From Dehalococcoidia bacterium (GTDB lineage Bacteria > Chloroflexota > Dehalococcoidia > GIF9 > UBA5629): a stretch of DNA of 36,257 nucleotides. The stretch covers positions 1 through 36,257 of the forward strand of contig JADHXB010000005.1 of NCBI GenBank assembly GCA_016783155.1, given 5' to 3'. Both the position numbers and the translations under genes were made by a program. The notes under the pieces were generated by a model, which saw only the letters and a program-made list of their open reading frames with translations, ran no database searches and was not told the DNA's origin. Within the stretch, counting starts at the first letter, position 1, and every line of letters starts with the position of its first letter. Positions 1 through 35,863 of this stretch are shown in pieces.

Positions 1-25
1 ATCAGCCACGGAACCTGATGCGGCA

Positions 26-223
26 TTAGAGTTTCCTCAAGGCCTCCTCGACAACATGTACCTTCTCCTGAGACACAAGGATACGGTAGCCAGCCAATCC
101 ACTGACGCCTGGCTCTTTCTTTTGGTCAGGCAGAATCCGCGTCGGTATTCCCTCACCCTCAAAGAATTCCTTCCACATCTCAGCTATTATCAAATTAGGT
201 GCGCTCTTAACCTGAACCCACAT
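26..223 (-). CDS. DUF2007-like small protein (putative signal-transducing)
   Basis: 65 aa ORF; WVQVKSAPNLIIAEMWKEFFEGEGIPTRI...YRILVSQEKVHVVEEAL resembles the DUF2007 fold; no search run. Confidence 0.55.
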   Translation of the reverse strand: MWVQVKSAPNLIIAEMWKEFFEGEGIPTRILPDQKKEPGVSGLAGYRILVSQEKVHVVEEALRKL

Positions 224-253
224 ATCCTAGTTCACTACCTAAGGCTGTTTATT

Positions 254-317
254 GTCATTGCGAGGAGCACAGCGACGTGGCAATCCCCAGAGATTGCTTC
301 GCTCCGCTCGCAATGAC
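254..317. repeat. Imperfect palindromic intergenic repeat GTCATTGCGAG...CTCGCAATGAC
   Basis: Left arm GTCATTGCGAGgagcacagcgacgtggCAATC pairs with GATTGcttcgctccgCTCGCAATGAC; lies between the DUF2007-like gene and nuoK; resembles a dispersed repeat type seen in many bacterial genomes. Confidence 0.75.
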
Positions 318-338
318 GGGCAGGAATTACTAAACGCT

Positions 339-650
339 CTACCATTTCATCAAGTCGAATTTGTCAACATCAACAGATTCGCGACTGCGATAAATAGCGA
401 TTATTATAGCTATACCAACGGCAGTCTCAGCCGCAGCCACCACGATGACAAATATGGCAAATATCTGCCCGGTAAGAAACATTGGCACAACATAACGGGA
501 AAAAGCAACCAGAGCGATATTCACTGCATTGAGCATAATTTCAATGCACATCAAAATGACTACAGCATTACGCTTAGCCAGAACTCCGTACAACCCGATG
601 GAGAAAAGAACCGCTGATAAGACAAGGTAATGTTCTAATCCAACCGACAT
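339..650 (-). CDS. nuoK: NADH-quinone oxidoreductase subunit K
   Basis: 103 aa; [32 protein letters not shown] is typical NuoK; operon context. Confidence 0.95.
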
Positions 651-652
651 TT

Positions 653-1141
653 CTATTTCTCCCTTATCAACACGATGGCACCCAGCACCGCTGCCAGGAG
701 CAACACTGCGGTAATTTCCACAGGCAATATAAAACCGCCCTCGCCAAACAGGCTTAAACCTATAGCCGCTGTTGTCGGTTGCTGAGGTGGCTCACTGCTC
801 GTTTCCCACTTGGTACTCATCACAGTGAAAACCAGTGTCCCTAAAAGCAGCAAGCTCACTACCAAGGCAGGAATGCGCAGCTTCCCTGATGGACTACCGT
901 GCCAGACTTCGCGTGTAAGCATGATGGCGACGATAATCAATATTGAGATAGCTCCCACATAAATAAGAATCTGCACAACCGCCAGGAAGTCTGCATAAAG
1001 AGTTATATAAATCACAGCTATAGTTAAGAAAAGCAGGACTAGTGAAAGAGCCGCCCGAAAGACATCACGCAAGATAACTACAGCCAATGCTGCGCCGACA
1101 GTCACGGCTGCCAATATCCAGAAGACGATATCAAACACCAC
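653..1141 (-). CDS. nuoJ: NADH-quinone oxidoreductase subunit J
   Basis: 162 aa multi-[50 protein letters not shown]. Confidence 0.95.
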
Positions 1142-1676
1142 GGCCTCTCTTCTTGCTCAGTCCCAGCCAGCTCAATTTCTGCCCACCTTCCTCCTTATCC
1201 CAGTAGATGAGCAGGCTCTGCTTAGGCAGACTTGCCTCAATTCTTGGTCGAGCATAACCACTGGGCTGCCTGACATCAGATAACTGAAGCTCTTCTTTGC
1301 TCAAAACAAGTTGTTTACGTCTATGCTGCGCCCGCTCGTAGCTAATACCCATAGCCAACGCGTCAAAGGGGCAAGCCTCGACACATAAGCCACAGAACAT
1401 GCAACGTCCCGTATCTACCTCAAACTTATCAACCACGTAATTATTCTTGTCACCTACATGAGTAGCAATCTCAATATTTCCCTGAGGGCAACTCTTGGCA
1501 CAGGTAGCACAGCCAGTACATTTGTCTGGATACCACACTAGCTCGTTGCCTCTTATGCGCCTTGAGACAATCAGCTTCTCCTCAGGATATTGCACAGTTA
1601 TAGGGGCGCGAAACAGGTGCTTGAAGGTTACCGCCATCCCCTTAGCTATGCCGATTCCATATCTCTCAAACTTCAA
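1131..1676 (-). CDS. nuoI: NADH-quinone oxidoreductase subunit I (2x[4Fe-4S])
   Basis: 181 aa; CTGCATCAKSCPQGNIEI and CMFCGLCVEACPFDALAM ferredoxin motifs. Confidence 0.95.
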   Translation of the reverse strand: MKFERYGIGIAKGMAVTFKHLFRAPITVQYPEEKLIVSRRIRGNELVWYPDKCTGCATCAKSCPQGNIEIATHVGDKNNYVVDKFEVDTGRCMFCGLCVEACPFDALAMGISYERAQHRRKQLVLSKEELQLSDVRQPSGYARPRIEASLPKQSLLIYWDKEEGGQKLSWLGLSKKRGRGV

Positions 1677-2775
1677 CTCGGCCGCCTCCTAAAGTAAACA
1701 GCTTCGACCACAACAGGACTAGCACACCAGCAAAAACGAAGTTCACTGCCACCATTAACCATGGCGTAATTTCTGACAGCCATAGTACCTCGGCAGCAAC
1801 GATAAACAGGTTGATTATCGCCATAGGCAGTAGGCCCTTCCAGGCAAAAGCCATTAACTGGTCCACACGCAATCTGGGAAGTGTACTGCGCATCCACACG
1901 ATAACGAAAAACACCGCCATGACCTTAATTACGAGCCATATAATCGGCGGCAACAACGGCCCTTGCCAGCCGCTCAGGAACAGGGTAGCAATAATACACG
2001 AATAAGCTAGAGCATGGCCATATTCACCGAGATAAAACATGGCAAACTTCATTCCGGAATACTCAATGTGGTAGCCAGCGACGATTTCAGAATCAGCTTC
2101 GAGAAGGTCAAACGGGCTGCGGTTCATCTCAGCAACCGTCCCCAGGAAAAAGATAACAAAGCCCAGAGGCTGCAGTAAAAGGAAGGGGATTTTCTGTGAG
2201 GCTACAATCTGTGTCATCGACAGCGACCCGGCCATCAACACCACACCCAGAATCGCTAGAACCACTGGCAACTCATAGCTCACCATCTGGGCTACTGCCC
2301 TCAGAGCTGATATCAAGCCATACTTATTATTTGATGCCCAACCCGCCATGTATATGCCAACTGCAGATATAGAACTGATTGCCACTACATAAACCACGCC
2401 TACATTCAGATCAGTTAGGATGGCACGTTCACCGAATGGCACTACAGCGAAAATCATCAACACCGGCACAAAGACAATAACCGGCGCCAGCCAGTGAATC
2501 ACTTTATCACTCTTGGTCGGCACAATATCCTCCTTCAACAATATCTTCACAGCGGTAGCAATCGGCTGGAAAATCCCCTCCGGCCCAAGCCGGTTGGGGC
2601 CCAGACGAACTTGAAACCGGCCCAGCAACCGCCGCTCATACCAGATAAAGACTATAACCATGGTCAAGACGAAACCGAGAACAACCACTATGCCGACTAT
2701 GGCTGGCACGATGTAAGCTGCCCAACCCGGCCAGATACTACCTAGCCATAACTGAAATTGTTCCAGTAGCGTCAT
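1666..2775 (-). CDS. nuoH: NADH-quinone oxidoreductase subunit H
   Basis: Track ORF runs to 2844; MTLLEQF start at 2775 abuts nuoD end. ERRLLGRFQVRLGPNRLGPEGIFQPIATAVKILLKEDIVPT and LLEADSEIVAGYHIEYSGMKFA are NuoH signatures. Confidence 0.93.
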   Translation of the reverse strand: MTLLEQFQLWLGSIWPGWAAYIVPAIVGIVVVLGFVLTMVIVFIWYERRLLGRFQVRLGPNRLGPEGIFQPIATAVKILLKEDIVPTKSDKVIHWLAPVIVFVPVLMIFAVVPFGERAILTDLNVGVVYVVAISSISAVGIYMAGWASNNKYGLISALRAVAQMVSYELPVVLAILGVVLMAGSLSMTQIVASQKIPFLLLQPLGFVIFFLGTVAEMNRSPFDLLEADSEIVAGYHIEYSGMKFAMFYLGEYGHALAYSCIIATLFLSGWQGPLLPPIIWLVIKVMAVFFVIVWMRSTLPRLRVDQLMAFAWKGLLPMAIINLFIVAAEVLWLSEITPWLMVAVNFVFAGVLVLLWSKLFTLGGGRVEV

Positions 2776-3878
2776 TACCTGTCTATCTCCCCCAGGCAGA
2801 CATCTATGCTGCCCAATATAATTATCAAGTCGGCCACTTTCCAACCTATAGCCATGTCCTTTAGAGCAGTCATGTTAATCAGCGTTGGAGCACGAATATG
2901 GAATCTGTAAGGGGCAATAGAATTATCGCTGACCAAATGGAAGCCAAGCTCGCCTTTGGGTGCCTCTATATGCCCGTATACTTCACCGACTGGTGGCCGC
3001 AACAACTGAGGTACTTTGGCACAAGCCTCACCTTCCGGCAACTGGGCTATCGCCTGTTCCAAAATGCGTACGCTCTGCCTCATCTCCTGCATCCTTACCC
3101 AGTATCGGTCGTAGCAATCGCCAACGGTGCCAACCGGTATTTCAAAGTCAAAGCGGTCATAAATTGAATACGGATCAGCTCGACGAATATCCCACTTCAC
3201 ATCGCTAGCACGAAGCACCGGACCGCTGGCCGCAGTATTTATCGCCGTATCTTTAGGTAATATTCCAACGCCTTTAGTCCTTGCCAGCAAAACCTCATTC
3301 TGAGACAGAAGCCGGTCATATTCATCAATAAATCCTGGCATCTCAGCCACAAACCTCTTCAAAGCTGGCAAGAATTCTTCAGGGATGTCATGGCTGACGC
3401 CACCAATACGCATATAGTTATAGGTAAGTCGCTGACCGCAAACCATCTCAAATAGGTCTAATAGCTTTTCTCTCTCCCGCCACATATACAATACCGGAGT
3501 CATCATAGCTCCAAGATCGTTAAGGAAGAAGCCGACTGCCATAAGATGGTTGGCAATACGCATCATCTCAGCCATGATTATCCTCAGATATTCAGCCCGC
3601 TCCGGAACCTCTATGCCGGCCAGCTTCTCCACTGCTAGCACATAGGCAAAATTGTTCGTCATGGAAGCCACATAGTCGAGCCTGTCGGTCAACGGGATTA
3701 TTTGAGCATAGGTCCTATTTTCTCCTAACTTCTCGATCCCCCGATGGAGATAACCCATAACAAGTTCCACATCAGTGACGACTTCTCCGTCAAGGGTAAC
3801 TCGTAGGCGTAGGACACCGTGAGTTGATGGGTGCTGCGGACCCATATTAAGAATAAAAGGCTCAGTCCTTATCGCCAT
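2775..3878 (-). CDS. nuoD: NADH-quinone oxidoreductase subunit D
   Basis: Track ORF to 3914; likely start MAIRTEPFILNMGPQHPSTHGVLRL at 3878; ends DVCLGEIDR. Confidence 0.95.
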   Translation of the reverse strand: MAIRTEPFILNMGPQHPSTHGVLRLRVTLDGEVVTDVELVMGYLHRGIEKLGENRTYAQIIPLTDRLDYVASMTNNFAYVLAVEKLAGIEVPERAEYLRIIMAEMMRIANHLMAVGFFLNDLGAMMTPVLYMWREREKLLDLFEMVCGQRLTYNYMRIGGVSHDIPEEFLPALKRFVAEMPGFIDEYDRLLSQNEVLLARTKGVGILPKDTAINTAASGPVLRASDVKWDIRRADPYSIYDRFDFEIPVGTVGDCYDRYWVRMQEMRQSVRILEQAIAQLPEGEACAKVPQLLRPPVGEVYGHIEAPKGELGFHLVSDNSIAPYRFHIRAPTLINMTALKDMAIGWKVADLIIILGSIDVCLGEIDR

Positions 3879-3879
3879 C

Positions 3880-4320
3880 TCAGAGATAATCCCTCCGCAA
3901 CGGATGTCCAACAAAACCTTCCCAGAGCAACAAACGTTTCAAATTAGGATGCCCTTCAAAGATTATACCCATGAGGTCATAAGCTTCTCGCTCCTGAAAA
4001 TCAGCCGCCCGCCACAAGCTGACCACTGAAGGTACTGCTGGCTTGTCGCGGTCATAGCATCTGGCCTTCAAAACCACACTGTGGTTATGCCTCAACGAAA
4101 TCAGATGGTAGACAACTTCAAAATAATCCGTATAGTCGACGGCAGTGAGATTAGTCAGATAGTCGAAATCAAGCGTCCGCGTATTCTTTAGAAATTCCGC
4201 TACCTGATAAAGAGATTTGCTCGTGACAACGACAGCTGCCTTATCAGCAGCGGCAATAGAGCCAGGAAACTTCTTAGCTATCTTCTTGGCTACTTCCTCA
4301 CCATTTAAGGCTTTGGTCAC
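3880..4320 (-). CDS. nuoC: NADH-quinone oxidoreductase subunit C
   Basis: 146 aa; [39 protein letters not shown] is typical NuoC. Confidence 0.94.
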
Positions 4321-4907
4321 GCTTTCTTTATGCTCTCCCTGATGATTTTCTCGTGTATCTTCCTTATGCCATGAAGCAACCCCTCAGGCCGAGGCGGACA
4401 ACCGGGCACATAGACGTCAACTGGGATTATGCGATTAATCCCAGGGACAACGCTGTAGGATTCTCTGAACGGCCCACCACTAATCGCGCACTGCCCCATA
4501 GCTATGACCCATTTGGGCTCCGGCATCTGCTCATAGACTAATTTCACTGCCGGCGCCATCTTCCAAGTAAGCGTTCCGGCAACAATCATCAAGTCAGCCT
4601 GGCGCGGTGACCAGCGAAATATGTCCATGCCGAAGCGAGCAATATCAAAACGCGAAGCTGCCGCACCGATCATCTCAAAAGCACAGCAGGCCAACCCAAA
4701 CATGAGCGGAAATAGTGACCGCGACCGTGCCCAATCAAGCACATAGTCCACCGTAGTAATAAGCACGTTCCGCCTTATCTCCTCATCAAGCCACTTGTCA
4801 GGGTCAGGTATCGGCTGCTGGGAAGCTTCCATCAGCGAGTTGATCTTCAAGCCCTCAGCTATATCAATCTCTTTCAAGGGCATGACTCCGTATCCTTCTA
4901 TTTCCAC
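4317..4907 (-). CDS. nuoB: NADH-quinone oxidoreductase subunit B
   Basis: 196 aa; [67 protein letters not shown]; start may be internal (MPLKEID, 4883). Confidence 0.96.
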
Positions 4908-5299
4908 TCTAGAGCCCCTTTAAGCCAGGCATAGATATATCCCACCATAAGGATGACGAAGAAAACAGCTACCGCAATCAGCCCAAACAAGCCCAGCCCT
5001 TTAAGATTAACCGCCCAGGGATACAGAAAAACAGTTAACACGTCGAGCGCAACGAAAAGAACAGCAAAGAAATAATAGCGGAAGTTATATTGAACCCAGG
5101 TCTTGCCGATAGTTTCCATGCCACACTCATAGGTGGAAGTCTTGGCTGGATTGCTTTTCCTGGGTACGATCTTGAAAAAGCTAAGTGTCAGAGGCAGAAG
5201 CAGAGTAGTAACCGTGAACAGAATACCTACGATAAGGAGTATCCCGATGTAACCGAAATCTGCTAACAAGTAGTCAGGCCTCACTATCTCGTTACCCAT
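4898..5299 (-). CDS. nuoA: NADH-quinone oxidoreductase subunit A
   Basis: 133 aa; [48 protein letters not shown]. Confidence 0.93.
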
Positions 5300-5323
5300 G
5301 AAAAACCTCGTTTTTCATGGGTA
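5293..5323 (-). promoter_or_regulatory. Perfect 14-bp inverted repeat over the nuoA start codon, with an embedded mini-ORF
   Basis: TACCCATGAAAAAC-CTC-GTTTTTCATGGGTA on + strand; on the mRNA the second arm contains the nuoA AUG and the GAGG lies at the loop; first AUG encodes MKNEVFHG*. Confidence 0.7.
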
Positions 5324-5397
5324 CTAAAATGCCGTCTGAAAGTATAGCACACACACAAAAGAAAGGGCAAAGCTTGACTTGAGGTACTCTCAGTATA

Positions 5398-5643
5398 GGC
5401 CTTCAAAGCATGGGGGACTGAGCCTACACTGAAGTGACACAAGGACAGTCATGGGTAAACCTGTGCTACCATCACCAAGGAGTGCTCTCACTTTCGCCAC
5501 TCGGTCTATCCACCTGCTCAAACTAGCGGAGTCGGTAGCAACTCATGTTCTTGACACCACCATCTGCAATGTGCGATAATAATTATGGGCATATGCTAAT
5601 AAGTGCAAGTGGCAGTGAAGCAATCAAAAATCCTGTGGGCAGG
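5398..5643 (+). repeat. Copy 1 of a duplicated promoter/5'UTR block (near-identical core 5524-5643)
   Basis: Collinear with 19837-20081; core 119/120 identical by eye (single difference at 5620 vs 20058), upstream part visibly diverged. Confidence 0.92.
5551..5580 (+). promoter_or_regulatory. Sigma70-like promoter in duplicated block, copy 1
   Basis: TTGACA, 18 nt, TGC-GATAAT (extended -10); directed toward csoR antisense strand and mvhD/fdhA. Confidence 0.6.
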
Positions 5644-5650: not shown

Positions 5651-5938
5651 TTATTTACTGTCGCCAACTCGCACTCGACCCCAGATAGCTATAGCCCTCG
5701 CCAGGGAGTCGACATTTCCTGACTCAGCTTTACTATCTTGGCGAAAGCAAAGCTTCATGTAGTTGTTTAGCACCAGGGCACCAACACTCTCAATGGCAGA
5801 ACGTAAAGCCGCTAGTTGGGTCACCAGACTTTCGCAATCACGGCCATCAATGACCATTTTTTCGATGCCGCGAACCTGCCCTTCGATCCTTTTGAGCCGT
5901 TTTAGCAGCATTTGCTGTGATACTTCTTGTTTAGCCAT
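5651..5938 (-). CDS. CsoR/CstR/RcnR (DUF156) family metal- or persulfide-sensing repressor
   Basis: KRLKRIEGQVRGIEKMVIDGRDCESLVTQLAALRSAIESVGALVLNNYMKLCF; track ORF to 5983, but GGAGGAGG SD precedes MAKQEVSQQ at 5938. Confidence 0.88.
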   Translation of the reverse strand: MAKQEVSQQMLLKRLKRIEGQVRGIEKMVIDGRDCESLVTQLAALRSAIESVGALVLNNYMKLCFRQDSKAESGNVDSLARAIAIWGRVRVGDSK

Positions 5939-5981
5939 TGCCTCCTCCGATATTCGAGATGTTACTGCGTGTTGCTTTACC

Positions 5982-5998
5982 ATACCCCTGTAGGGTAT
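5982..5998. promoter_or_regulatory. Putative CsoR/CstR operator
   Basis: ATACCC-CTGTA-GGGTAT perfect 6-bp arms upstream of csoR; overlaps a + strand TATAAT at 5996-6001. Confidence 0.6.
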
Positions 5999-18775: not shown

Positions 18776-19768
18776 ATGGAAGAAAGAGATGTAGTCATAA
18801 TTGGCGCGGGCCCCGCCGGATTGTCGGCATCGGTCTTCACCCAGCTCGACGGCTGGAGCACGCTGGTCATCGAAGGCAACTGGGTCGGTGGGCAAGGTGC
18901 CATCGCCTATACAGTAAGCAACTACCCCGGTTTCCTACCCGGAGACGGCAGTATATTGATGGACAACATGGAGAAACAGGTTACTTCGACCCCTCCGTCA
19001 GGAGTCGGCGCAGAACTACGGAGGGAAAGGGTTATTAGCCTTAAGGCTGAGGATAAGGTTGTGACTACAGAGGAGAACGAATATAGGGCGCAGACTATCA
19101 TCCTTGCCACTGGTAGCACTATGCAAAAGCTCGGGGTACTGGGTGAGGAGAGGTTTGCCGGTAAAGGTGTCTCCTATTACGCCAGGCGCGATGTGGATCA
19201 GTTCAGCGGAAAGAGGGTACTGGTTGTTGGTGGCGGAAATACCACAGCCAAGAGTGCGCTGTTAGCCAAAACTGTTACCAGTCAGGTTACCCTGATACAC
19301 CGGAGGGAATCGCTACGGGCGTATTCCATCATGACCAAGAGCCTACAAAAAGAAGGGATCGAGATTTGGTATAACACCGAGCTGAAGGAGATAAGGGGTG
19401 GCGATTGGGTACAGACAGCAGTTGTGGTAAACAATAAGACCGGTGCGGAGAAGGAGATAGGAGTCGACTGGATAGTCATCTGCGTAGGAACCGAACCTGA
19501 TACCAGGCTAGCACGGGAAGCAGGGCTGGAGATGAAAGGCACTGTTGTAAAAATCAACAGCCAGATGATGACCTCCAAGCCAGGAATCTTTGCCTGCGGG
19601 GAGATTACGGGTTGTGATCGGCACCTCATCTCTTCAGCTAGCCAAGGTGCCTGTGCTGGCATGTACGCCAGCGAGTACTTGGCCCTAGAGAAGGTTAAGA
19701 GGGGAGAGATGTTCGAGGGTGCCAAGAATGGTAAGTATGCTGACGAGTATATGGCTATGCTTCGCTAG
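18776..19768 (+). CDS. Thioredoxin reductase-like flavoprotein lacking the CxxC
   Basis: VVIIGAGPAGLSASVFTQLDG, VLVVGGGNTTAKSALLA, HRRESLRA, KPGIFACGEITGC; TrxR CxxC position reads GVSYYARRDVDQF; SD AAGGAGG. Confidence 0.88.
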   Translation: MEERDVVIIGAGPAGLSASVFTQLDGWSTLVIEGNWVGGQGAIAYTVSNYPGFLPGDGSILMDNMEKQVTSTPPSGVGAELRRERVISLKAEDKVVTTEENEYRAQTIILATGSTMQKLGVLGEERFAGKGVSYYARRDVDQFSGKRVLVVGGGNTTAKSALLAKTVTSQVTLIHRRESLRAYSIMTKSLQKEGIEIWYNTELKEIRGGDWVQTAVVVNNKTGAEKEIGVDWIVICVGTEPDTRLAREAGLEMKGTVVKINSQMMTSKPGIFACGEITGCDRHLISSASQGACAGMYASEYLALEKVKRGEMFEGAKNGKYADEYMAMLR

Positions 19769-19836
19769 CCGCCGAATCTGAAACAGCATGGTATGGGCAT
19801 TAGAGAGTCAAACCGGTGATTCATACTGGTAGCATC

Positions 19837-20081
19837 GGCCTTCGAGCGGTTCGGGCATGGTCTATACTAAAGCGGCATAAGGACGGCCACAGGTAAAACA
19901 GTAATACCATCAGCAAAGAGCGTCCTCCCTTTCGCCGAGTAGTCCATCCATCTACTCAAAATAGCGGAGTCGGTAGCAACTCATGTTCTTGACACCACCA
20001 TCTGCAATGTGCGATAATAATTATGGGCATATGCTAATAAGTGCAAGTGGCAGTGAAACAATCAAAAATCCTGTGGGCAGG
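19837..20081 (+). repeat. Copy 2 of the duplicated promoter/5'UTR block (core 19962-20081)
   Basis: Core 119/120 identical to 5524-5643; upstream part diverged. Confidence 0.92.
19989..20018 (+). promoter_or_regulatory. Sigma70-like promoter for DUF134 gene
   Basis: TTGACA-18 nt-TGC-GATAAT, extended -10. Confidence 0.65.
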
Positions 20082-20546
20082 CCAATCAAATGGCGGCGCG
20101 TGGCTTCACTACCTCAAGTGTTCCATTTCAAGCCAGCAGCAGTGCCATTGCATATGCTTGAAGAGGTATGTCTATCCGTTGAAGAAATTGAAGCACTACG
20201 GCTTAAAGACCTGGAGGGGTTAGAACAAGAGGCGTGTGCTAAAGAGATGAACGTTTCTCGTCCAACTTTCCAGCGTATACTGGGTTCAGGAAGACAGAAG
20301 GTAGCTGACGCCCTAGTTAACGGTAAGGCCATCAAGGTTGAGGGGGGTAACTTCGAGATGGCTCTTCGTCGCTTCAGATGCAATGATGGACATGAGTGGG
20401 ACGTTCCATTTGAAATTATGGTGGAGACTCCTCCACAACTATGTCCTACTTGTAGCACACCAGGTATTATGCCCCTCTGGCCACCAGGGTTGGTCAAGGC
20501 AAAGGGTGGATGGGGAAGGTGCCGCAGAGGAAGGAGAGGGTGGTAA
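20031..20546 (+). CDS. DUF134 helix-turn-helix protein
   Basis: VGRPIKWRRVASLPQVFHFKPAAVPLHMLEEVCLSVEEIEALRLKDLEGLEQEACAKEMNVSRPTFQRIL; C-terminal Cys-containing extension. GTG 20073 is an attractive alternative start. Confidence 0.88.
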   Translation: MLISASGSETIKNPVGRPIKWRRVASLPQVFHFKPAAVPLHMLEEVCLSVEEIEALRLKDLEGLEQEACAKEMNVSRPTFQRILGSGRQKVADALVNGKAIKVEGGNFEMALRRFRCNDGHEWDVPFEIMVETPPQLCPTCSTPGIMPLWPPGLVKAKGGWGRCRRGRRGW

Positions 20547-20549
20547 TAA

Positions 20550-21272
20550 ATGAAGGTTCTTGATGATTTACTCTCAACGCTGAATTTCGATGTTGGTGTG
20601 AGAGATGTGCGCCAGGGTCTATTTCATACGGGGGTGCTGACTCGCAATTGCGGGTTGGCAGCAACACTTCCCCGCGATGCTCTTCAGCAGGAGCAACCTT
20701 CGGTGCGAGAGCCAGGCTTCCTGTTAAGGAAAAGCGCTCTGGAGCTCGCCAGGATGGCTTATTCAGAGAGCATACTTGAGGCGGCTATCGGTATGGCGAC
20801 CATCAATTCGCTACTCCAAATCGATGAGGAGTGCTGTATGAATCTTAATGCTGGTGACCTGATCGCCCAAAAAGGAAGAGGCAAAAAAGTGGCTATTGTG
20901 GGGCACTTTCCCTTTACATCCAGACTTCGAGGGATAGTAAAGGAGCTATGGGTAATTGAGAAGAATCCGCGAGAAGGTGATTACACTGAAGCTGAAGCGG
21001 AGAACCTTATTCCAAAAGCTGACGTTGTTGGCATCACTGGAACTGCCTTCACTAACCATACCATTGAGCACCTGCTCAAGCTATGTGAGCCTAAAGCTTA
21101 TGTGGTCATATTGGGAGACACCACTCCCTTATCACCAGTACTTTTTGATTATGGCATCGATGCTGTGTCAGGAACAAAAGTAATAGACTATGAATTGGCA
21201 TTGCAATGTGTTAGCCAGGGGGCCACTTATCAACAGATAGGAGGAATCCGCAAGCTCACCATGACAAGATGA
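20550..21272 (+). CDS. DUF364 family protein (putative metal chelatase-like)
   Basis: GKKVAIVGHFPFTSRLRGIVKELWVIEKNPREGDYTEAEAENLIPKADVVGITGTAFTNHTIEHLLKL...ILGDTTPLSPVLFDYGIDAVSGT. Confidence 0.85.
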   Translation: MKVLDDLLSTLNFDVGVRDVRQGLFHTGVLTRNCGLAATLPRDALQQEQPSVREPGFLLRKSALELARMAYSESILEAAIGMATINSLLQIDEECCMNLNAGDLIAQKGRGKKVAIVGHFPFTSRLRGIVKELWVIEKNPREGDYTEAEAENLIPKADVVGITGTAFTNHTIEHLLKLCEPKAYVVILGDTTPLSPVLFDYGIDAVSGTKVIDYELALQCVSQGATYQQIGGIRKLTMTR

Positions 21273-21351
21273 GTACAGAGAGTCGAAGGATGACGTCTTG
21301 GAAAGCAGTAGTGAGCATTATTGGAGAAAGTAATTGTGGGGCAAGTTAACA

Positions 21352-21807
21352 ATGATGGTACAAGGTGTTATAGACAGCAAGTTGAACCGGCGTAACACAA
21401 AGCAGCGCCAGTTGATCCTGGAAATCATGGAGCAGGCTGACGAACATTTTGATGCCGAACAGATCTACGAGCGAGTTCGGCAAATGTCACCAAGCATTAG
21501 CCTGTCCACAGTGTACCGCAATTTGCAGTTGTTCACAAAGGTGGGACTGTTAAGAGAGCATCAATTCAATAGTATGCGTCGCCGCTACGAAATCGCTACT
21601 CGATCCGGACACCATCATTTGATGTGCATAGGCTGCGGCCGGATATTTGAGTTTAGATGCCCATCTTCAGAGGGGCTTAAGACCAGAATCACCAGGGAGG
21701 AGGGATTTAGGGTTACTGATGCTGAAGTCCGTCTTGTGGGCTATTGCCCCGAATGCCAGCGACGGCTATCAGACAAAAACGCCAATGCTGAATTGGAAAG
21801 GAGGTGA
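21352..21807 (+). CDS. Fur-family transcriptional regulator
   Basis: NTKQRQLILEIMEQADEHFDAEQIYERVRQ...ISLSTVYRNLQLFTKVGLLREH...HLMCIGCGRIFEFRC...YCPECQ. Confidence 0.92.
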   Translation: MMVQGVIDSKLNRRNTKQRQLILEIMEQADEHFDAEQIYERVRQMSPSISLSTVYRNLQLFTKVGLLREHQFNSMRRRYEIATRSGHHHLMCIGCGRIFEFRCPSSEGLKTRITREEGFRVTDAEVRLVGYCPECQRRLSDKNANAELERR

Positions 21808-21812
21808 CTGAG

Positions 21813-22010
21813 ATGCCATTCGGAATGGGACCTGCTGGTTGGGCCTATATGTCTCCATATACCTACCCGTATGCCTCTTCCTATCCCTATTCATATTCCT
21901 ACACCGGCGTCTCCTACCCAGTGTGGCCGTGGTGGGGTGGCTGGGGACGAGGTAGAGGTCGTGGATTCTGCCGGCGCTGGTTTGCACCCTACTGGTATAC
22001 CTGGTGGTAG
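21813..22010 (+). CDS. W/Y/G-rich small protein, DUF5320-like
   Basis: MPFGMGPAGWAYMSPYTYPYASSYPYSYSYTGVSYPVWPWWGGWGRGRGRGFCRRWFAPYWYTWW; AAGGAGGTGA SD. Confidence 0.65.
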   Translation: MPFGMGPAGWAYMSPYTYPYASSYPYSYSYTGVSYPVWPWWGGWGRGRGRGFCRRWFAPYWYTWW

Positions 22011-22047
22011 AACCGGGAACAAAATCTGCGTAAGGAGGTGATATGAC

Positions 22048-22239
22048 ATGTAGCCTTGGCACGGATACTGGCATGCCTGGAGATGTGGATGGCTAGGATA
22101 TTGGTGGAGACCGCCTTTTGGTTGGCCATGGGCACCCATATCCAAAGAGCAACAAATAGCGATTCTGGAGGAACAGGCCAAGATACTGGAAGGCGAACTG
22201 GACAGTATCAAAAAGAGATTAGAGAAAATCAAAACGTAA
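22048..22239 (+). pseudogene. DUF5320-like ORF with TAG as second codon (not in ORF track)
   Basis: AAGGAGGTGATATGAC-ATG-TAG-CCTTGG...: M*PWHGYWHAWRCGWLGYWWRPPFGWPWAPISKEQQIAILEEQAKILEGELDSIKKRLEKIKT*. Confidence 0.7.
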
Positions 22240-22251
22240 GGAGGTGAGAAA

Positions 22252-22587
22252 ATGCCAAACGGATTCGGTAGAGGATTTGGCTCCAGGAGAGGCATGGGCT
22301 TCGGCTTTCGAGGAAGCTCTCCTCCCTGGCCCTACATAGGACGGGGTAGAGGTGGTTTGCCCAGGTGCGGCTATTTCTTTGGCCAGGCCGGTATGCCGCC
22401 AGCTTGGTCATATCCCCCAAGCCCATTTCCCTACTACGGACAGCAATCTACCCCCGCTTACACGCCCTTTGCCCCACCAATGAGCAAGGAAGAGGAGACC
22501 AGTTATCTGAAAGGTGAGGCGGAAGCGATAAAGGACGAGCTGGAGCAGATTGAGGCCAGGGTACGTGAGCTAGAGAGCGAAGAGTGA
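22252..22587 (+). CDS. DUF5320-like G/F/P-rich protein with C-terminal coiled coil
   Basis: MPNGFGRGFGSRRGMGFGFRG...MSKEEETSYLKGEAEAIKDELEQIEARVRELESEE; AAGGAGGTGA SD. Confidence 0.8.
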   Translation: MPNGFGRGFGSRRGMGFGFRGSSPPWPYIGRGRGGLPRCGYFFGQAGMPPAWSYPPSPFPYYGQQSTPAYTPFAPPMSKEEETSYLKGEAEAIKDELEQIEARVRELESEE

Positions 22588-22636
22588 GCCAGACTTATTT
22601 AGTGAAAGAACATGAATAAATTTAAGGAGGTGAATC

Positions 22637-22936
22637 ATGCCAGGATTTGATGGTACTGGCCCTATGGGAATGGGCCCAATGACGGGTGGCGGTAGAGGCT
22701 TTTGCAGCCCCTGGGGAATAAGAGCCGGTGCGCAGGCGTACGGTATTCCACGCCGGAGGGGTTATGGTTATCCCTACCATGCAGCCGGGCCGTTCGCTCC
22801 AGGTGTTACGCCCTACGCTCCTCAGATGAGCCGTGAGCAGGAGCTTGGTTTTCTGAAGCAACAGGCTGAAGCCATGAGGGTTGAACTTAAGGAGATCGAA
22901 GCCAGGATAAAGGAACTGGCAAAAGAAACAAAATAA
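22637..22936 (+). CDS. DUF5320 family protein
   Basis: MPGFDGTGPMGMGPMTGGGRGFCSPWG...MSREQELGFLKQQAEAMRVELKEIEARIKELAKE; AAGGAGGTGA SD. Confidence 0.88.
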   Translation: MPGFDGTGPMGMGPMTGGGRGFCSPWGIRAGAQAYGIPRRRGYGYPYHAAGPFAPGVTPYAPQMSREQELGFLKQQAEAMRVELKEIEARIKELAKETK

Positions 22937-22945
22937 GGAGGAGCT

Positions 22946-23569
22946 ATGAAGATTGCCATTTCGGCTACAGGCTCCACCATTGATGCTGAGGTGGATTCCC
23001 GCTTCGGGCGTTGTCAGCATTTTATCATCGCTGATACGGAAACACTGCAGTTCGAGGTTGTGGAGAATTCTAGTGCTGCCGCTTCTGGCGGAGCGGGGAT
23101 CTCGGCTGCCCAGATGATTGTCGGCAAGGGGGTAAAGGCAGTGCTCACCGGCAACTGTGGTCCGAATGCCTACGAGGTGCTATCCTCTGCTGGTATTCAA
23201 GTCGTGACCGGGGTTTCTGGAAAGGTCAAGGATGCCATCGAGAGCTACAAGTCTGGCAAGTTTCAGGCCAGTTCCCAGCCGAATGTCCCGGGACATTTCG
23301 GCACAGGTGGCACGCCTGGGACAGGAGTTGGCCCAGGCTTTGGCATGGGGCGTGGCATGGGCAGGGGAATGGGGATGGGACGAGGCATGGGAATGGGTGG
23401 AGGGATGGCGGCATGGGGTATGCCCGCAGTAAGTCCGGTGTCACAACCCCAAAACCTGGAGCAGGAACTTGAGGCTCTGAAGGCACAATCGCAAATGCTG
23501 GCAAAGCAACTGGAGGAAATCCAGGGCCGAATCAAGGAGCTCGAAAAGGGAGCAAAACATAAAGACTGA
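22946..23569 (+). CDS. Dinitrogenase iron-molybdenum cofactor (NifX/NafY/ORP-like) domain fused to GMGRGM repeat and coiled coil
   Basis: MKIAISATGSTIDAEVDSRFGRCQHFIIADTET...VLTGNCGPNAYEVLSSAGIQVV; then GMGRGMGRGMGMGRGMGMGGGM and LEQELEALKAQSQMLAKQLEEIQGRIKELEKG. Confidence 0.9.
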   Translation: MKIAISATGSTIDAEVDSRFGRCQHFIIADTETLQFEVVENSSAAASGGAGISAAQMIVGKGVKAVLTGNCGPNAYEVLSSAGIQVVTGVSGKVKDAIESYKSGKFQASSQPNVPGHFGTGGTPGTGVGPGFGMGRGMGRGMGMGRGMGMGGGMAAWGMPAVSPVSQPQNLEQELEALKAQSQMLAKQLEEIQGRIKELEKGAKHKD

Positions 23570-23592
23570 AATTATTTATAGGAGGTGCAAAT

Positions 23593-23823
23593 ATGCCTAG
23601 AGGAGATGGAATGGGACCTCCTTGGGGGAGCGGCCCGGGTACAGGTAGAGGTTCAGGCAGAAGAACCGGAGGCGCCGGCAGGATGGGTGGTAACCGACCC
23701 GGGGCTGGTCCCAGTGGAGAGTGTGTCTGCCCAAATTGTGGGGAGAGACTAGCGCATCAGGCAGGTATCCCTTGCTACAACGTGAGCTGTCCCAAGTGCG
23801 GGGCTAAGATGGCGAGGGCATGA
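23593..23823 (+). CDS. Glycine-rich zinc-ribbon protein
   Basis: MPRGDGMGPPWGSGPGTGRGSG...CVCPNCGERLAHQAGIPCYNVSCPKCGAKMARA. Confidence 0.8.
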   Translation: MPRGDGMGPPWGSGPGTGRGSGRRTGGAGRMGGNRPGAGPSGECVCPNCGERLAHQAGIPCYNVSCPKCGAKMARA

Positions 23824-24686
23824 TTATTTCCGTGGCCAGTGGCAAAGGTGGAACAGGCAAGACCTTGGTAGCTACCAGCCTTGCTCTTTCCCTGAAGGAT
23901 ACGGAAAGAGTACAGCTGATTGACTGTGATGTGGAGGAGCCTAATGCACATCTGTTCTTGAAGCCGGTAATCACTCATAGCGAGGCTGTGTGCATCCCTG
24001 TTCCCAAGGTGGATGACGAAAAGTGCACTTATTGCGGTAGATGTGCCGATGTTTGCGTCTATCATGCTATCGCCGTCGTCCCAAAGCATGTAATGACATT
24101 CTTGGAGCTATGCCACGGCTGCGGCGCTTGTAGCTATCTCTGTCCCGAGAAGGCTATCGCTGAGGAGGGTAGGGAAATTGGTATTGTGGAATCGGGGTAC
24201 TCAGATGGGGTGGACTTTGCTCAAGGCAAACTAAATGTCGGTGAGGCTTTGGCTCCGCCGATAATCAGGAAGGTGAAAGAGTTCGCCAATCATGATGGTG
24301 TGGTTATTATCGATGTTCCGCCGGGGACGTCCTGCCCGGTGGTAGAAGCAGTTAAAGACAGCGACTTCTGTTTGCTGGTAACTGAGCCAACTCCATTCGG
24401 GCTGAACGACTTGGTTTTAGCTGTGGAAACGGTGAAGGAGCTTAAGATACCCTGCGGCGTGGTCATTAATCGCGCCGGGGTTGGTGACGGTAAGGTAGAA
24501 GAATATTGCCGGAGGGAAAGCATACCGATTCTACTTACAATTCCCCTGGATACCGAGATCGCCCGTCTCTATTCGAACGGAATTACACTGGTCGCTGGTA
24601 TGCCCATGTGGAAGAGTGATTTTGTCAGATTGTTCGAGAAGATTGGAGATATAGTACATGAAAGAACTGGTCGTCTTGAGCGGTAA
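23820..24686 (+). CDS. MinD/Mrp-family P-loop ATPase with inserted 2x[4Fe-4S] ferredoxin domain
   Basis: SGKGGTGKTLVATSLAL; CTYCGRCADVCVYHAI...CHGCGACSYLCPEKAI; IDVPPGTSCPVVEAV. Confidence 0.93.
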   Translation: MIISVASGKGGTGKTLVATSLALSLKDTERVQLIDCDVEEPNAHLFLKPVITHSEAVCIPVPKVDDEKCTYCGRCADVCVYHAIAVVPKHVMTFLELCHGCGACSYLCPEKAIAEEGREIGIVESGYSDGVDFAQGKLNVGEALAPPIIRKVKEFANHDGVVIIDVPPGTSCPVVEAVKDSDFCLLVTEPTPFGLNDLVLAVETVKELKIPCGVVINRAGVGDGKVEEYCRRESIPILLTIPLDTEIARLYSNGITLVAGMPMWKSDFVRLFEKIGDIVHERTGRLER

Positions 24687-25518
24687 AGGGGGAACGGGAA
24701 AGACCAGTATAGTTGCCTCATTTGCCGCTCTGGCTCGAAGCAAAGTGCTCTGCGACTGTGATGTAGACGCAGCTGACCTGCATCTCGTCCTGCAGCCGAT
24801 TATACGTGAGAATCATGAGTTCTGGAGCGGGCAGGTTGCCGTTATCGACGAGGACAAGTGCACGCAGTGTAACTTGTGCCAGGAGCTATGCCGGTTCGAC
24901 GCTATCCATGATTTCAAGGTCGATCCCATTTCCTGTGAAGGCTGTGGCTTTTGCTCTCAAATATGCCCTCCTGAAGCTATAACCATGAAGGAAAACATGT
25001 CAGGGCGTTGGTTTATCGCGGATACGCGATACGGTCCTCTAATACATGCCAGGCTGGGAATCGCGCAGGAGAACTCAGGTAAGCTCGTGGCTCTGGTTAG
25101 GCAAAAGGCCAGGCAGATTGCTGAAAGTGATGACCTTGATTATGTCATCAGTGATGGGCCGCCCGGTATCGGCTGTCCGGTCATTTCATCTTTGTCTGGG
25201 GTTAGCCTGGCCCTTTTGGTTACCGAGCCAACACAATCAGGCATACATGACCTGGAGAGGGTGCTCGACCTATGTCGTCACTTTGGCGTTCCTGCACTAG
25301 TTTGTATCAACAAGTACGACATCAATGAAGATAACACACGCAAGATTGAAGACTATTGCCTGAGCCAGGGGCTAATGGCTGCTGCCAAGATCCCGTTCGA
25401 TAATGTGTTTACCGAGTCAATCGTAAAGGGAATACCAGTAGTGGAGAATTCCCGAGATGGTATTGCTAAGAGCATAGAATCACTCTGGCAGAGCATTTCT
25501 CGGTTACTGGCAGGATAA
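24658..25518 (+). CDS. MinD/Mrp-family P-loop ATPase with inserted ferredoxin domain (tandem paralogue)
   Basis: LSGKGGTGKTSIVASFAAL; CTQCNLCQELCRFDAI...CEGCGFCSQICPPEAI; SDGPPGIGCPVISSL. Confidence 0.93.
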   Translation: MKELVVLSGKGGTGKTSIVASFAALARSKVLCDCDVDAADLHLVLQPIIRENHEFWSGQVAVIDEDKCTQCNLCQELCRFDAIHDFKVDPISCEGCGFCSQICPPEAITMKENMSGRWFIADTRYGPLIHARLGIAQENSGKLVALVRQKARQIAESDDLDYVISDGPPGIGCPVISSLSGVSLALLVTEPTQSGIHDLERVLDLCRHFGVPALVCINKYDINEDNTRKIEDYCLSQGLMAAAKIPFDNVFTESIVKGIPVVENSRDGIAKSIESLWQSISRLLAG

Positions 25519-25532
25519 AGGAGCTACTTTAC

Positions 25533-25715
25533 ATGCCAATCTACGAATATGAATGCCTGAAGTGTGGGCAGAGATTTGAGCTGCTCCGGCACATAGCCGA
25601 CAGTGACAGCAACATAAGGTGTCCCAAGTGTGGTGCCGAAAAGCCGCAGAGGGTTATCTCTGCTTTCATGATGGGACCTAGCAAAGGGGGCTGTGCCCCT
25701 AGCAGCCCCACCTGA
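25533..25715 (+). CDS. FmdB-type zinc ribbon protein
   Basis: MPIYEYECLKCGQRFELLRHIADSDSNIRCPKCGAEKPQRVIS. Confidence 0.88.
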   Translation: MPIYEYECLKCGQRFELLRHIADSDSNIRCPKCGAEKPQRVISAFMMGPSKGGCAPSSPT

Positions 25716-25771
25716 AGTGTGAGCCGGTGAGGCAGGTTGTCTCATTTGAGTAAGAAAGGAGAATTGGAGGT

Positions 25772-26017
25772 ATGCCAATCTATGACTTTAAGTGCCGAGA
25801 GTGCGGTAGGGTGTCAGAGGTCTTGCTCCGCGATGTTGGCAAGGCGGTCTGCTGTCCCAGCTGCGGCAGTGAGAATATGGAAAGGCTCATTTCGGCATCT
25901 TACATGGTGAAGACGGATGCGCCGGCACCAGGTACTACTTGCTGCGGCAGAACCGAGCGCTGTGACACGCCTCCGTGTTCCACAGGAGATGTGTGTAACA
26001 GAGACCGAAGGAGGTAA
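25772..26017 (+). CDS. FmdB-type zinc ribbon protein with Cys-rich tail
   Basis: MPIYDFKCRECGRVSEVLLRDVGKAVCCPSCGSENMERLISASYMV...TTCCGRTERCDTPPCSTGDVC. Confidence 0.87.
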   Translation: MPIYDFKCRECGRVSEVLLRDVGKAVCCPSCGSENMERLISASYMVKTDAPAPGTTCCGRTERCDTPPCSTGDVCNRDRRR

Positions 26018-26026
26018 AGTCAGGCA

Positions 26027-26320
26027 ATGGAACCTATCAAGCTTGGCCCCAGGTATTCCACGAAGGAAATCCCAGGCAAGTGTATTAAATGCCTGGCTGA
26101 GCAGGAGTTGAATAACTGCCTTCTCGAACTCTTAAAGCAGGGCGAAGTAGGGAATCAGGAGCTGGAATACAAATTTGAAGCACTCGTGTCCTTCTTGAAA
26201 TCCCCTGAATCAAAAAGGCTGCGCGATGAGTCCGAGAAGTATCTTGCAGAAGGAAAACAGGTGACGGTCGATATCCATTTTGAGGCGGGGAAACCCGTAT
26301 ACGAGCTTAAGATAAAGTAG
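26027..26320 (+). CDS. Hypothetical protein (97 aa)
   Basis: MEPIKLGPRYSTKEIPGKCIKCLAEQELNNCLLELLKQGEV...; in operon. Confidence 0.7.
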   Translation: MEPIKLGPRYSTKEIPGKCIKCLAEQELNNCLLELLKQGEVGNQELEYKFEALVSFLKSPESKRLRDESEKYLAEGKQVTVDIHFEAGKPVYELKIK

Positions 26321-26340
26321 ATAAGTATGGAGGTGTCTTA

Positions 26341-26679
26341 ATGAGGTTTGCCATACCAGTAAGCGGCGGTGTGATATCGCCGCATTTCGGACATTGTGAA
26401 CAATTTGCTTTGATTGATGTCGATGAGGCGACAAAGACCGTTGTTCGGAAACAGCTTGTGGCTTCACCGGAACACCAGCCGGGGCTGCTGCCAGTGTGGC
26501 TAGCGGAGCAGGGGGTATCAGCAGTCGTAGCCGGTGGCATGGGATCCAGAGCCCAGGCGCTGTTCCGGGAGAACCGTATCGACGTCATCATCGGCGTTAT
26601 GGAAAGCGACCCAGAGAAAGCCGTTCTGAATTACTTAAGCGGCAGCCTTGCTACGGGTGACAACATATGTGACCACTAG
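26341..26679 (+). CDS. NifX/NafY-like dinitrogenase iron-molybdenum cofactor family protein
   Basis: MRFAIPVSGGVISPHFGHCEQFALIDVDEATKTV...LAEQGVSAVVAGGMGSRAQALFRENRIDVIIGV. Confidence 0.88.
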   Translation: MRFAIPVSGGVISPHFGHCEQFALIDVDEATKTVVRKQLVASPEHQPGLLPVWLAEQGVSAVVAGGMGSRAQALFRENRIDVIIGVMESDPEKAVLNYLSGSLATGDNICDH

Positions 26680-26694
26680 TAAGGAGGTGGCGAA

Positions 26695-28023
26695 TTGAAA
26701 GTTTGTATTGTCGGTGGTGGTGGCGGAGCTAGCAATGCCGCCAATGTTATTCGCAGCCTGGATAAGCAGGCACAGATCGACATATTCACCAACCGGGGCG
26801 AGATGGGAAATCTGCCCTGTGAAATACCGTTTGTACTTAAGGGTGTACTCTCTTCCTGGGAAAGCAGCTTCGCGTTCAGGGATAAATTTTACGAGGAAAG
26901 GAACATCGAAGTTCATCTCAATACAGAGGTGACTGAAATAATCAGAGAGCATAAACGTTTGATGGCAGGAGGGATAAGCTACAGCTATGACAAAGCGATT
27001 CTAGACCTGGGGGCTAGCCCAATTATTCCTCCCATTCTGGGGCTGGATGGGTGTAATGAGTTTGTCCTGACCTCAGGCCTAAACCAGGCCAGAATCTTCG
27101 AGAATGCAATTCCAAAGTATTCGAGGGCAGCCATAATAGGTGTTGGGCAAATTGCGCTCGAAGTAGCTTCAATTCTCAAGGAAAAGTCCTACCGCGAGAT
27201 ATATCTAATAGGCAGGTCCGACCGCGTTCTTCGTGCCTATCTGGACAAGGACATGGCTGCTGTGGTGGAGGATAAAGTAAGGGAAAAGGGCATGGAGCTA
27301 ATCCTATCAGCAGAAATCGTCAAGATAGCGACATGTGAAAATGGTAAGGTACTCTCGTTGGCGGACAGGGATCTCGAGATAGACTTCGTGTTTTTCGCCA
27401 CCAGTACCGAACCAAATACGAAATCGGCGCAGAAGGCAGATATCAGAATAGGAGAAACCGGTGCCATCGCCGTCAACGAGTATCTCCAGACAAGCGACCC
27501 TGATATCTATGCCATTGGGGACTGTATGGAGAATTGGGAGAGAATCACAGGCACCAAGACTTGCTACCAAACAGCGACCAACGCTGCCCGAACTGGAAGA
27601 ATAGCGGGTAAAAATTTAGCTTTAGGCAACGTAGTTCGCTATCCCGGCACGGTGATGCCTTTTGTTACAGAAATTTTCGGATATCAGGTGGGCATGGTCG
27701 GCTTCACCGAGACACAGGCTCGAGAGCGGGGACTCGATGTTGTCTCCAGCATAACGACCACTTCTACACGGCGCCGGCTGTTTGGAGGCAAGCCAATCCA
27801 CATTAAGCTCATCGCTGACCGCAGAACCCGGAGCTTAGTCGGAGCACAACTTATCGGTGAAGAACTGGTGGCAGGAAAAATCGACAGGCTTGCAGTTGCT
27901 ATCGCAGAAAAGATTCCAGTTGACCGGTTGTCCCTGCTCGATACCTGCTACTCACCGACCACAGGTGCGGGATACGAAGCCGTGACCATGGCGCTGGATG
28001 AACTTGAGGGAAAGCTCGCTTAG
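26695..28023 (+). CDS. FAD-dependent pyridine nucleotide-disulfide oxidoreductase
   Basis: TTG start with AAGGAGGTGG; MKVCIVGGGGGASNAANVIRSLD, MGNLPCEIPFVLKG, IIGVGQIALEVASILKEKSYREIYLIGR, TSDPDIYAIGDCME. Confidence 0.9.
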   Translation: MKVCIVGGGGGASNAANVIRSLDKQAQIDIFTNRGEMGNLPCEIPFVLKGVLSSWESSFAFRDKFYEERNIEVHLNTEVTEIIREHKRLMAGGISYSYDKAILDLGASPIIPPILGLDGCNEFVLTSGLNQARIFENAIPKYSRAAIIGVGQIALEVASILKEKSYREIYLIGRSDRVLRAYLDKDMAAVVEDKVREKGMELILSAEIVKIATCENGKVLSLADRDLEIDFVFFATSTEPNTKSAQKADIRIGETGAIAVNEYLQTSDPDIYAIGDCMENWERITGTKTCYQTATNAARTGRIAGKNLALGNVVRYPGTVMPFVTEIFGYQVGMVGFTETQARERGLDVVSSITTTSTRRRLFGGKPIHIKLIADRRTRSLVGAQLIGEELVAGKIDRLAVAIAEKIPVDRLSLLDTCYSPTTGAGYEAVTMALDELEGKLA

Positions 28024-28063
28024 TCAGCGGCGCAAAGAAGAATGAAAACGTAAGGAGGAATTC

Positions 28064-29071
28064 ATGCCGACTAAAGAGCAAGTGACGGAGAGTCTCGATG
28101 AGGTTCTTGTTCCCGGGGTAATGCGCAGCCTGACAAAGCTAAACCTGGTCAGGCAGGTGGCTATATCTGATGAAAAGATTGATATTAACCTTGCCTCAGC
28201 GGCGTTGAGCCAGGAGACTCAGGAGTGGCTCAAAAGCAAGGTGCAGGATACCATCAGGAGGTTGCCTGGTGTAAAGGACGTGAATATCGACTTTGCCGAG
28301 ATGAAACCCAAAGATGTCAATGAAATCAAGAGCGTGATTGCTGTTATGAGTGGTAAGGGTGGGGTAGGAAAATCGCTGGTAGCTGGCCTTGCAGCTATTT
28401 CTCTTGCCCGTCGTGGCTTCGAAGTTGGCATACTCGATGCTGACATCACCGGCCCCAGCATCCCCAAGATGTTCGGCATTACTGCCCGTCCTACGGGTAG
28501 TGAAACCGGGTTTCTGCCAGTGCTTTCTCGATTAGGAATCGAGATCATGTCTATCAATCTTCTCTTACCCCATGAGGACGATGCCGTTATCTGGAGGGGC
28601 CCTTTAATCGGCAAAGCCATAACGCAGTTCTGGGAAGAGGTTCTCTGGGGCCAGCTTGATTATCTCATTGTAGATCTGCCACCGGGCACGGCCGATGCAC
28701 CACTCACCGTGATGCAGTCGTTACCTCTATCAGGCATAATCGTAGTTTTCAGTCCTCAGGAATTGGCGGCAATGGTGGTGCGTAAGGCAGTCAAAATGGC
28801 TCAAGAGGCTATGCATATTCCCATCCTGGGAGTGGTAGAGAATATGAGTTACCTTGTTCTGCCCGATACAGGAAAGAGGCTGGAAATCTTCGGCAAGAGC
28901 AGGGCCGAAGAGATGGCAAAAGCAGCGGGAGCACCTCTACTGGCACAGATACCCATTGACCCACAGCTAGCCCATCTCTGCGACGAGGGTGATATAGAGC
29001 GCTATTATTCTGGGTCGCTGGATGCTTTTGCTGACGCTCTTGTTAAAGTTGTGGCAGCGAATGTAATGTAA
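28064..29071 (+). CDS. Mrp/NBP35 (ApbC) family Fe-S carrier ATPase with N-terminal DUF59-like domain
   Basis: VMSGKGGVGKSLVAGLAAISLARRGFEVGILDADITGPSIPKMFG; IVDLPPGTADAPLTVMQSLPLSGIIVVFSPQELAAMVVRKAVKMA. Confidence 0.93.
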   Translation: MPTKEQVTESLDEVLVPGVMRSLTKLNLVRQVAISDEKIDINLASAALSQETQEWLKSKVQDTIRRLPGVKDVNIDFAEMKPKDVNEIKSVIAVMSGKGGVGKSLVAGLAAISLARRGFEVGILDADITGPSIPKMFGITARPTGSETGFLPVLSRLGIEIMSINLLLPHEDDAVIWRGPLIGKAITQFWEEVLWGQLDYLIVDLPPGTADAPLTVMQSLPLSGIIVVFSPQELAAMVVRKAVKMAQEAMHIPILGVVENMSYLVLPDTGKRLEIFGKSRAEEMAKAAGAPLLAQIPIDPQLAHLCDEGDIERYYSGSLDAFADALVKVVAANVM

Positions 29072-29097
29072 GGTAATAAGGAAAGGAAAAGGGAGCG

Positions 29098-29889
29098 TTG
29101 AAAATATCGATTTGCGGTAAAGGTGGCAGCGGGAAAAGCACTATCGTCACCCTGCTGGCAAATGAATTCAAAGCTAGAGGCTATCGCGTTGTCGTAGTGG
29201 ATTCAGATGAGTCAAACTCCGGGCTTTACCGGATGCTTGGCTTTGACCATCCGCCGATTCCCCTCATGGAGCTGGTGGGCAGTAAAAAAGGTCTTAAAGA
29301 AAGAATGGCGGTTAAGTTCTCGTCAGGCGAATCAGAGCCCAAGATGGAAAAACTGACCCTGAACAAAATTCTAGTCAAGGACATCCCACCCCAGCATATC
29401 AAAGAGAGCGACGGCCTCAGGCTGGTAAATATCGGGAAAATCCTTCATTCACTGGAAGGGTGCGCCTGCCCTATGGGAGTTTTGAGTCGGGAGTTTCTGG
29501 CAAAACTTTATCTCGATGAAGGTGAGATTGCAATTGTCGATATGGAGGCTGGAGTGGAGCACTTTGGCAGGGGCATAGAGACAAGCATAGATGAAGTGTT
29601 GGCAGTAGTTGAACCGTCCTTTGAATCTTTGGAGCTGGCCCTTAAAGTAAAGCAACTAGCTGCTGGTGCCGGGGTAAAAAACACCTGGGCTATCCTTAAT
29701 AAGATTACCTCGGATGAGATAGCAATGAGATTGAAAGATGAGCTAGCGAGAAGAGGCCTGGAGGTCATTGGTATCGTCCACCATGATCCAAAAATCTTCG
29801 AGGCCTGCTTGGAGGGGCATAGGCTGGAAGAAGGAGTAGCATCAAAGGACATCAGGGGGGTGGTGGATGCCGTGCTCTCGAAAACTTGA
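29098..29889 (+). CDS. cooC: CooC-like nickel-insertion ATPase
   Basis: TTG start; MKISICGKGGSGKSTIVTLLANEFKARGYRVVVVDSDESN; GCACPMGVLSREFL CxC motif; IAIVDMEAGVEHFGRG. Confidence 0.88.
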   Translation: MKISICGKGGSGKSTIVTLLANEFKARGYRVVVVDSDESNSGLYRMLGFDHPPIPLMELVGSKKGLKERMAVKFSSGESEPKMEKLTLNKILVKDIPPQHIKESDGLRLVNIGKILHSLEGCACPMGVLSREFLAKLYLDEGEIAIVDMEAGVEHFGRGIETSIDEVLAVVEPSFESLELALKVKQLAAGAGVKNTWAILNKITSDEIAMRLKDELARRGLEVIGIVHHDPKIFEACLEGHRLEEGVASKDIRGVVDAVLSKT

Positions 29890-29910
29890 AATAGAACTCT
29901 GGAGGAGGAA

Positions 29911-35848: not shown

Positions 35849-35863
35849 CAAAGGTTCTGGACA

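Follow-up and report, generated by a model that had tools for sequence, protein, structure and literature searches.

A block of about 120 bp that carries the promoter of a DUF134 gene occurs twice on a contig of a Dehalococcoidia bacterium (JADHXB010000005.1), once before the gene itself and once beside csoR. This raises the question of whether the second copy is a working switch that places the csoR-mvhD-fdh locus under the same control as the DUF134 gene, or a trace of past recombination. To answer it we analysed the window, that is, the whole stretch of 36,257 nucleotides, together with genomes of other members of the class.

Structure of the Repeat

Alignment of the two cores, 5524–5643 (copy 1) and 19962–20081 (copy 2), revealed 119 identical positions out of 120 and no indel; the single difference is G/A at 5620/20058, and the longest exact run common to both is 96 bp. 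The core is the right-hand part of a 252-bp homologous block, and the two blocks (about 5392–5643 and 19831–20081) are direct repeats 14.4 kb apart. The left ~130 bp of the block are only about 72% alike between the copies. Ungapped comparison of the 100 bp collinear upstream of the core gave 28 mismatches, 20 of them transitions, and gapped homology of the left parts extends back to about 5392/19831. Since the local alignment score of these left parts (67) is far above the maximum obtained in 2000 shuffles (30), they are diverged yet clearly homologous. The mismatch frequencies of the core (1/120) and of the upstream part (28/100) differ strongly (Fisher p = 4e-10), and identity switches abruptly from 72% to 99% inside the homologous repeat, as it does in a gene-conversion tract. 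At the other end, homology breaks off sharply past GTGGGCAGG, at 5643/20081. The near-perfect match without indels next to diverged collinear sequence, described by eye in an earlier note on this DNA, was thus borne out by alignment. The features of the repeat and its surroundings are as follows.

5392–5523, + strand: diverged upstream part of block 1, ~72% identical to 19831–19961 and found nowhere else
5524–5643, + strand: core copy 1, with promoter, predicted operator, leader and first three DUF134 codons but no gene; 119/120 match to 19962–20081
5551–5580, + strand: sigma70-like promoter of copy 1, TTGACA-18-GATAAT
5583–5602, + strand: palindrome TTATGGGCATATGCTAATAA, predicted DUF134 operator of copy 1, perfect match to TTATNRRCATATGYYNATAA
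5631–5644, − strand: terminator-like hairpin followed by a T-run, made by the DUF134 start of copy 1 when read on the csoR strand (−5.7 kcal/mol)
5651–5983, − strand: csoR, convergent with copy 1 (PF02583)
19831–19961, + strand: diverged upstream part of block 2, ~72% identical to 5392–5523
19962–20081, + strand: core copy 2, before the intact DUF134 gene; 119/120 match to copy 1
19989–20018, + strand: sigma70-like promoter of copy 2 (DUF134), TTGACA-18-GATAAT
20021–20040, + strand: palindrome, predicted DUF134 operator of copy 2, perfect match to TTATNRRCATATGYYNATAA
20073–20546, + strand: DUF134 gene, helix-turn-helix (HTH) protein (PF02001, E = 3.6e-24)

The earlier note had named a search for the core in the genome as a check that might overturn its reading; the block is present in two copies and no more in the 1.45-Mb draft (~77% complete), and is not a many-copy dispersed repeat. 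For the upstream part of the block, no homologue beyond matches of 20–25 bp was found in 395 other genomes of the class.

The earlier note had placed the DUF134 gene beside 5524–5643 and csoR beside 19962, but the arrangement is the reverse: DUF134, with its GTG start at 20073, lies downstream of copy 2, while copy 1 adjoins csoR. It is therefore copy 1 that matches the note's description of a duplicate with promoter, 5'UTR and about three codons without the gene. The TTGACA-18 promoter that the note had recognised is present in both copies, in each of which the −10 box, GATAAT, is preceded by TG. The palindrome TTATNRRCATATGYYNATAA sits just past the −10 box, over the predicted start site. 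No Rfam family matched the window at the gathering threshold, and none matched the region 19700–20150 even at E ≤ 1. A structured RNA was rejected on this basis, so that of the shared operator or RNA element suggested in the earlier note, only the operator, in the form of the conserved palindrome, was retained.

A Conserved Palindrome Upstream of DUF134 Genes

The gene that follows copy 2 clearly belongs to the DUF134/UPF0251 family (PF02001): its product scores 85.6 bits in Pfam over residues 2–96, where the cut-off is 27. A search for relatives of the protein in the PDB gave weak matches only (E > 0.01). The gene keeps company with DUF5320, NifX-like and Mrp/NBP35 genes. The same genome contains another DUF134-DUF5320-NifX-Mrp locus (G000:C50), which also has a palindrome, and the proteins of the two DUF134 genes are about 57% identical.

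In about 20 relatives, the sequence preceding the DUF134 gene contains a sigma70-like promoter immediately followed by the palindrome, which stands before DUF134 genes across much of Dehalococcoidia. A genome-wide search of 61 relatives usually revealed one palindrome site per genome, and a reversed control pattern gave almost none. Among the 30 genomes tested for both the gene and the site, with one mismatch allowed, the palindrome was found in 18 of the 20 that carry DUF134 and in none of the 10 that lack it (hypergeometric p = 2e-6). Nearly all sites for which the locus was fetched lie directly upstream of DUF134, and some DUF134-bearing members of the class have no palindrome. A one-mismatch palindrome flanked by unrelated genes (G051:C37) was taken as a chance occurrence.

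In several genomes the palindrome precedes other genes: DUF5320-NifX operons in G032 and G027 (the latter site with one mismatch), NifX in G441, and a Mrp/NBP35 gene in G067 (L139, 1501–1520). The G067 genome, a one-contig genome of the class, has a DUF134 gene of its own without the palindrome. At four further loci (L146, L147, L148 and L151), and in G298 (L145), the palindrome lies in the promoter of a family of membrane proteins of about 200–220 aa; the G298 protein had no Pfam match, and DUF134 directly follows its gene. Altogether, the genes behind perfect-match sites at other loci belong to DUF134, DUF5320-NifX, NifX, Mrp or a single family of membrane proteins. Copy 2 is likewise followed by DUF134, whereas copy 1, which faces only the 3' end of csoR, is the sole perfect-match site examined with no such co-oriented gene after it.

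Because in other genomes it precedes NifX, Mrp or DUF5320-NifX genes in place of DUF134, the palindrome is probably the operator of DUF134. Since it overlies the start site, we infer that DUF134 would bind it and act as a repressor rather than an activator; in the simplest reading, DUF134 would repress its own promoter and the Fe-S/NifX-Mrp gene set. A search of the literature outside most subscription journals found no published description of an operator, regulon or palindrome for the DUF134/UPF0251 family, nor any report of DNA binding by one of its proteins. The duplicate has thereby led to a sharply defined and testable predicted operator for a widespread family of unknown function, and the tracking of DUF134 by the palindrome in Dehalococcoidia, together with its position before NifX/Mrp where these are separate from DUF134, suggests a protein that regulates an anaerobic Fe-S carrier system.

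NifX-type and Mrp-type genes occur in anaerobe-specific operons. The functionally nearest described system is that of the orange protein (orp) operons of Desulfovibrio vulgaris, which share genes of these two types with the loci described here; however, the orp operons are dependent on sigma54 and IHF (PMC3897727), while here a sigma70-like promoter carries a palindrome over its start site.

In 6 of 34 draft genomes, where 1.5 would be expected, no more than 550 bp separate the DUF134 promoter from the end of the contig on its upstream side (post hoc p ~0.003), and in G006 two contigs (C120 and C92) meet at the DUF134 promoter with an overlap of exactly 141 bp. The upstream edge of DUF134 loci may be a strain-variable boundary.

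A 30.4-kb Insertion between nuoA and Its Neighbour

A point absent from the earlier note is that the whole segment carrying both copies is an insertion, with copy 1 placed at its left edge. In three genomes of the same genus (G001, G002 and G003) and in G012, window positions 1–5379 join 35806–36257, short spacers aside, and the flanks are 95.5% and 96.9% identical to G001 on the two sides. Since the flanks are contiguous in relatives, 5380–35805 has been inserted between nuoA and a divergently transcribed neighbour. The comparison thus also documents a 30-kb redox island at this position, delimited as follows.

5370–5379, + strand: AAGCTTGACT, left flank of the insertion
5380–35805: 30.4-kb insertion relative to G001, G002, G003 and G012, in which the flanks are contiguous
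35810–35819, + strand: AAGCTTGACT, right flank of the insertion

The 10-bp sequence AAGCTTGACT is single in G003 and G012. The insertion combines an empty site in close relatives (G001–G003 and G012) with a flanking direct repeat, as expected of a mobile element. This direct repeat may predate the island, because in G001 a small REP/MITE-like element of about 87 bp, located at the island site (L062, 6602–6689), is flanked by the same 10 bp.

Neither csoR nor the DUF134 gene of the window was found in the same-genus genomes G001–G003. In G012, csoR...trxB is joined straight to hydfd-def-fd, this cluster contains neither copy 1 nor the DUF134 segment, and DUF134 is on another contig. Judging by this arrangement, the DUF134 segment (~19770–33480) seems to form a second module of the island. 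The G012 contig in question (C266; L064, 9581 bp), with the order csoR-mvhD-fdhA...trxB-hydfd-def-fd, is 9.48 kb of either circular or tandemly arrayed DNA; the public records that match it bear the name k99, and no replication gene was noticed on it.

Surroundings of Copy 1

Copy 1 has the nuo operon on one side (nuoA, minus strand, start at 5299) and the 3' end of csoR on the other. It reads towards csoR and ends 7 bp short of the csoR stop codon. The weak hairpin and T-run formed by its DUF134 start are located 6–7 bp past that stop and could serve as a terminator for csoR. As at other loci of CsoR-family repressors, csoR here has upstream of it (5982–5998) a sequence, ATACCCCTGTAGGGTAT, which we take to be CsoR-box-like; the repeat, in contrast, is at the csoR 3' end, outside the csoR operator. 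The same positions, 5982–5998, form a terminator-like inverted repeat between copy 1 and mvhD. The mvhD gene begins about 470 bp downstream of copy 1 on the same strand, and the first 340 bp of this interval are csoR antisense. Since copy 1 has an intact promoter and an intact operator, a short csoR-antisense transcript from it is possible. In the related csoR-fdh clusters of G012 and G039 no palindrome was found beside csoR; the sites of these genomes are upstream of DUF134, on other contigs.

Origin of Copy 1

In the explanation that we consider likely, the core is an autoregulated DUF134 promoter-operator, and copy 1 is its stranded 5' relic, recently homogenised with copy 2. The core would consist of a sigma70-like promoter, a palindromic DUF134 operator over the start site, a short leader and the first three codons, with copy 2 as the working copy. 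Copy 1, located where the redox/Fe-S island begins on the left, would be a duplicate of the 5' part, truncated to 252 bp and fused to the 3' flank of csoR; either a DUF134 paralogue was deleted there or the 5' piece alone was duplicated. The two blocks would be old homologues, as suggested by the ~28% difference of their left parts, while homologous recombination between the direct repeats, by gene conversion or crossover, would have homogenised the 120-bp core recently. Stranded copy 1 is thus probably a recombination scar that controls no gene of its own and gives at most the short csoR-antisense transcript and a weak csoR terminator. An intact promoter and operator are unneeded in a relic and so speak against this explanation, but recent homogenisation would account for their intactness. 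The nuoA-copy 1-csoR arrangement is known from one genome only.

The earlier note had offered gene conversion or strong constraint as causes of the sharp change in divergence. Recent gene conversion or another form of recombination is indeed likely, whereas constraint fails as the cause. DUF134 promoter regions of related genera are only about 70–79% alike over the aligned part (a difference of 20–30%), so that selection alone cannot give 99%. It is true that promoter and palindrome are conserved between genera, but the spacer and leader vary freely there and are nevertheless identical here; pure constraint was rejected for this divergence, and it is very improbable that purifying selection alone has kept an old duplicate identical over 120 bp. 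Still less credible is a generic dispersed repeat unrelated to the adjoining genes, which the location of the block at an insertion edge might suggest; it was rejected by the copy number of two, and the core is DUF134-specific in relatives.

The earlier note's main proposal, that the csoR-mvhD-fdh locus and the DUF134 island are under one control, is possible but unlikely. According to it, DUF134 would repress its own gene through a palindromic operator of wide occurrence, and copy 1 would be a working DUF134-regulated promoter, whose antisense RNA would run through csoR and feed the mvhD-fdh operon, so that csoR-fdh would be linked with the DUF134 regulon. If true, a duplicated switch would wire a metal repressor and formate metabolism into the Fe-S/NifX-Mrp regulon. 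Copy 1 has an intact promoter and an intact palindrome, both identical to their counterparts in copy 2, DUF134-type palindromes adjoin promoters of other genes in other genomes, and mvhD-fdh lies downstream on the same strand. However, such a transcript would have to cross the 340 bp of csoR antisense and the terminator-like repeat before mvhD, palindromes elsewhere have a co-oriented gene starting close by, the csoR-fdh cluster of G012 has no palindrome adjacent to it, and recency rather than selection accounts for the identity of the copies. A partner swap during assembly seems slightly less plausible still. In that case the true arrangement would be nuoA-block-DUF134... on one molecule and, apart from it, a 14.4-kb unit of csoR...trxB-block, either circular or in tandem. 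The 96-bp exact run is long enough to mislead a de Bruijn assembler that uses a smaller k, and the related G012 csoR-fdh contig has 98-bp overlapping ends, indicative of a circle or tandem array. On the other hand, paired reads could phase the core, because it contains the 5620/20058 difference close to its right end and adjoins left parts with 28% divergence, and the insertion at the nuoA site, where there are only the 10-bp flanking repeats, cannot arise in this way.

The recombination scar that we favour resembles the truncated duplicates and gene-conversion tracts found at island junctions in its 99%/72% mosaic, its abrupt right end and its position at an insertion edge. It differs from them in that the homogenised piece is a complete promoter-operator and in that no integrase, transposase or relaxase was recognised, either by eye in the ORF list of 5380–35805 or among the Pfam-scanned ORFs, which are part of those of the island. 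At the right end of the island (window 35501–35848), an ORF without a Pfam match resembles a fragment of a surface/fibronectin-like protein and is possibly another junction scar.
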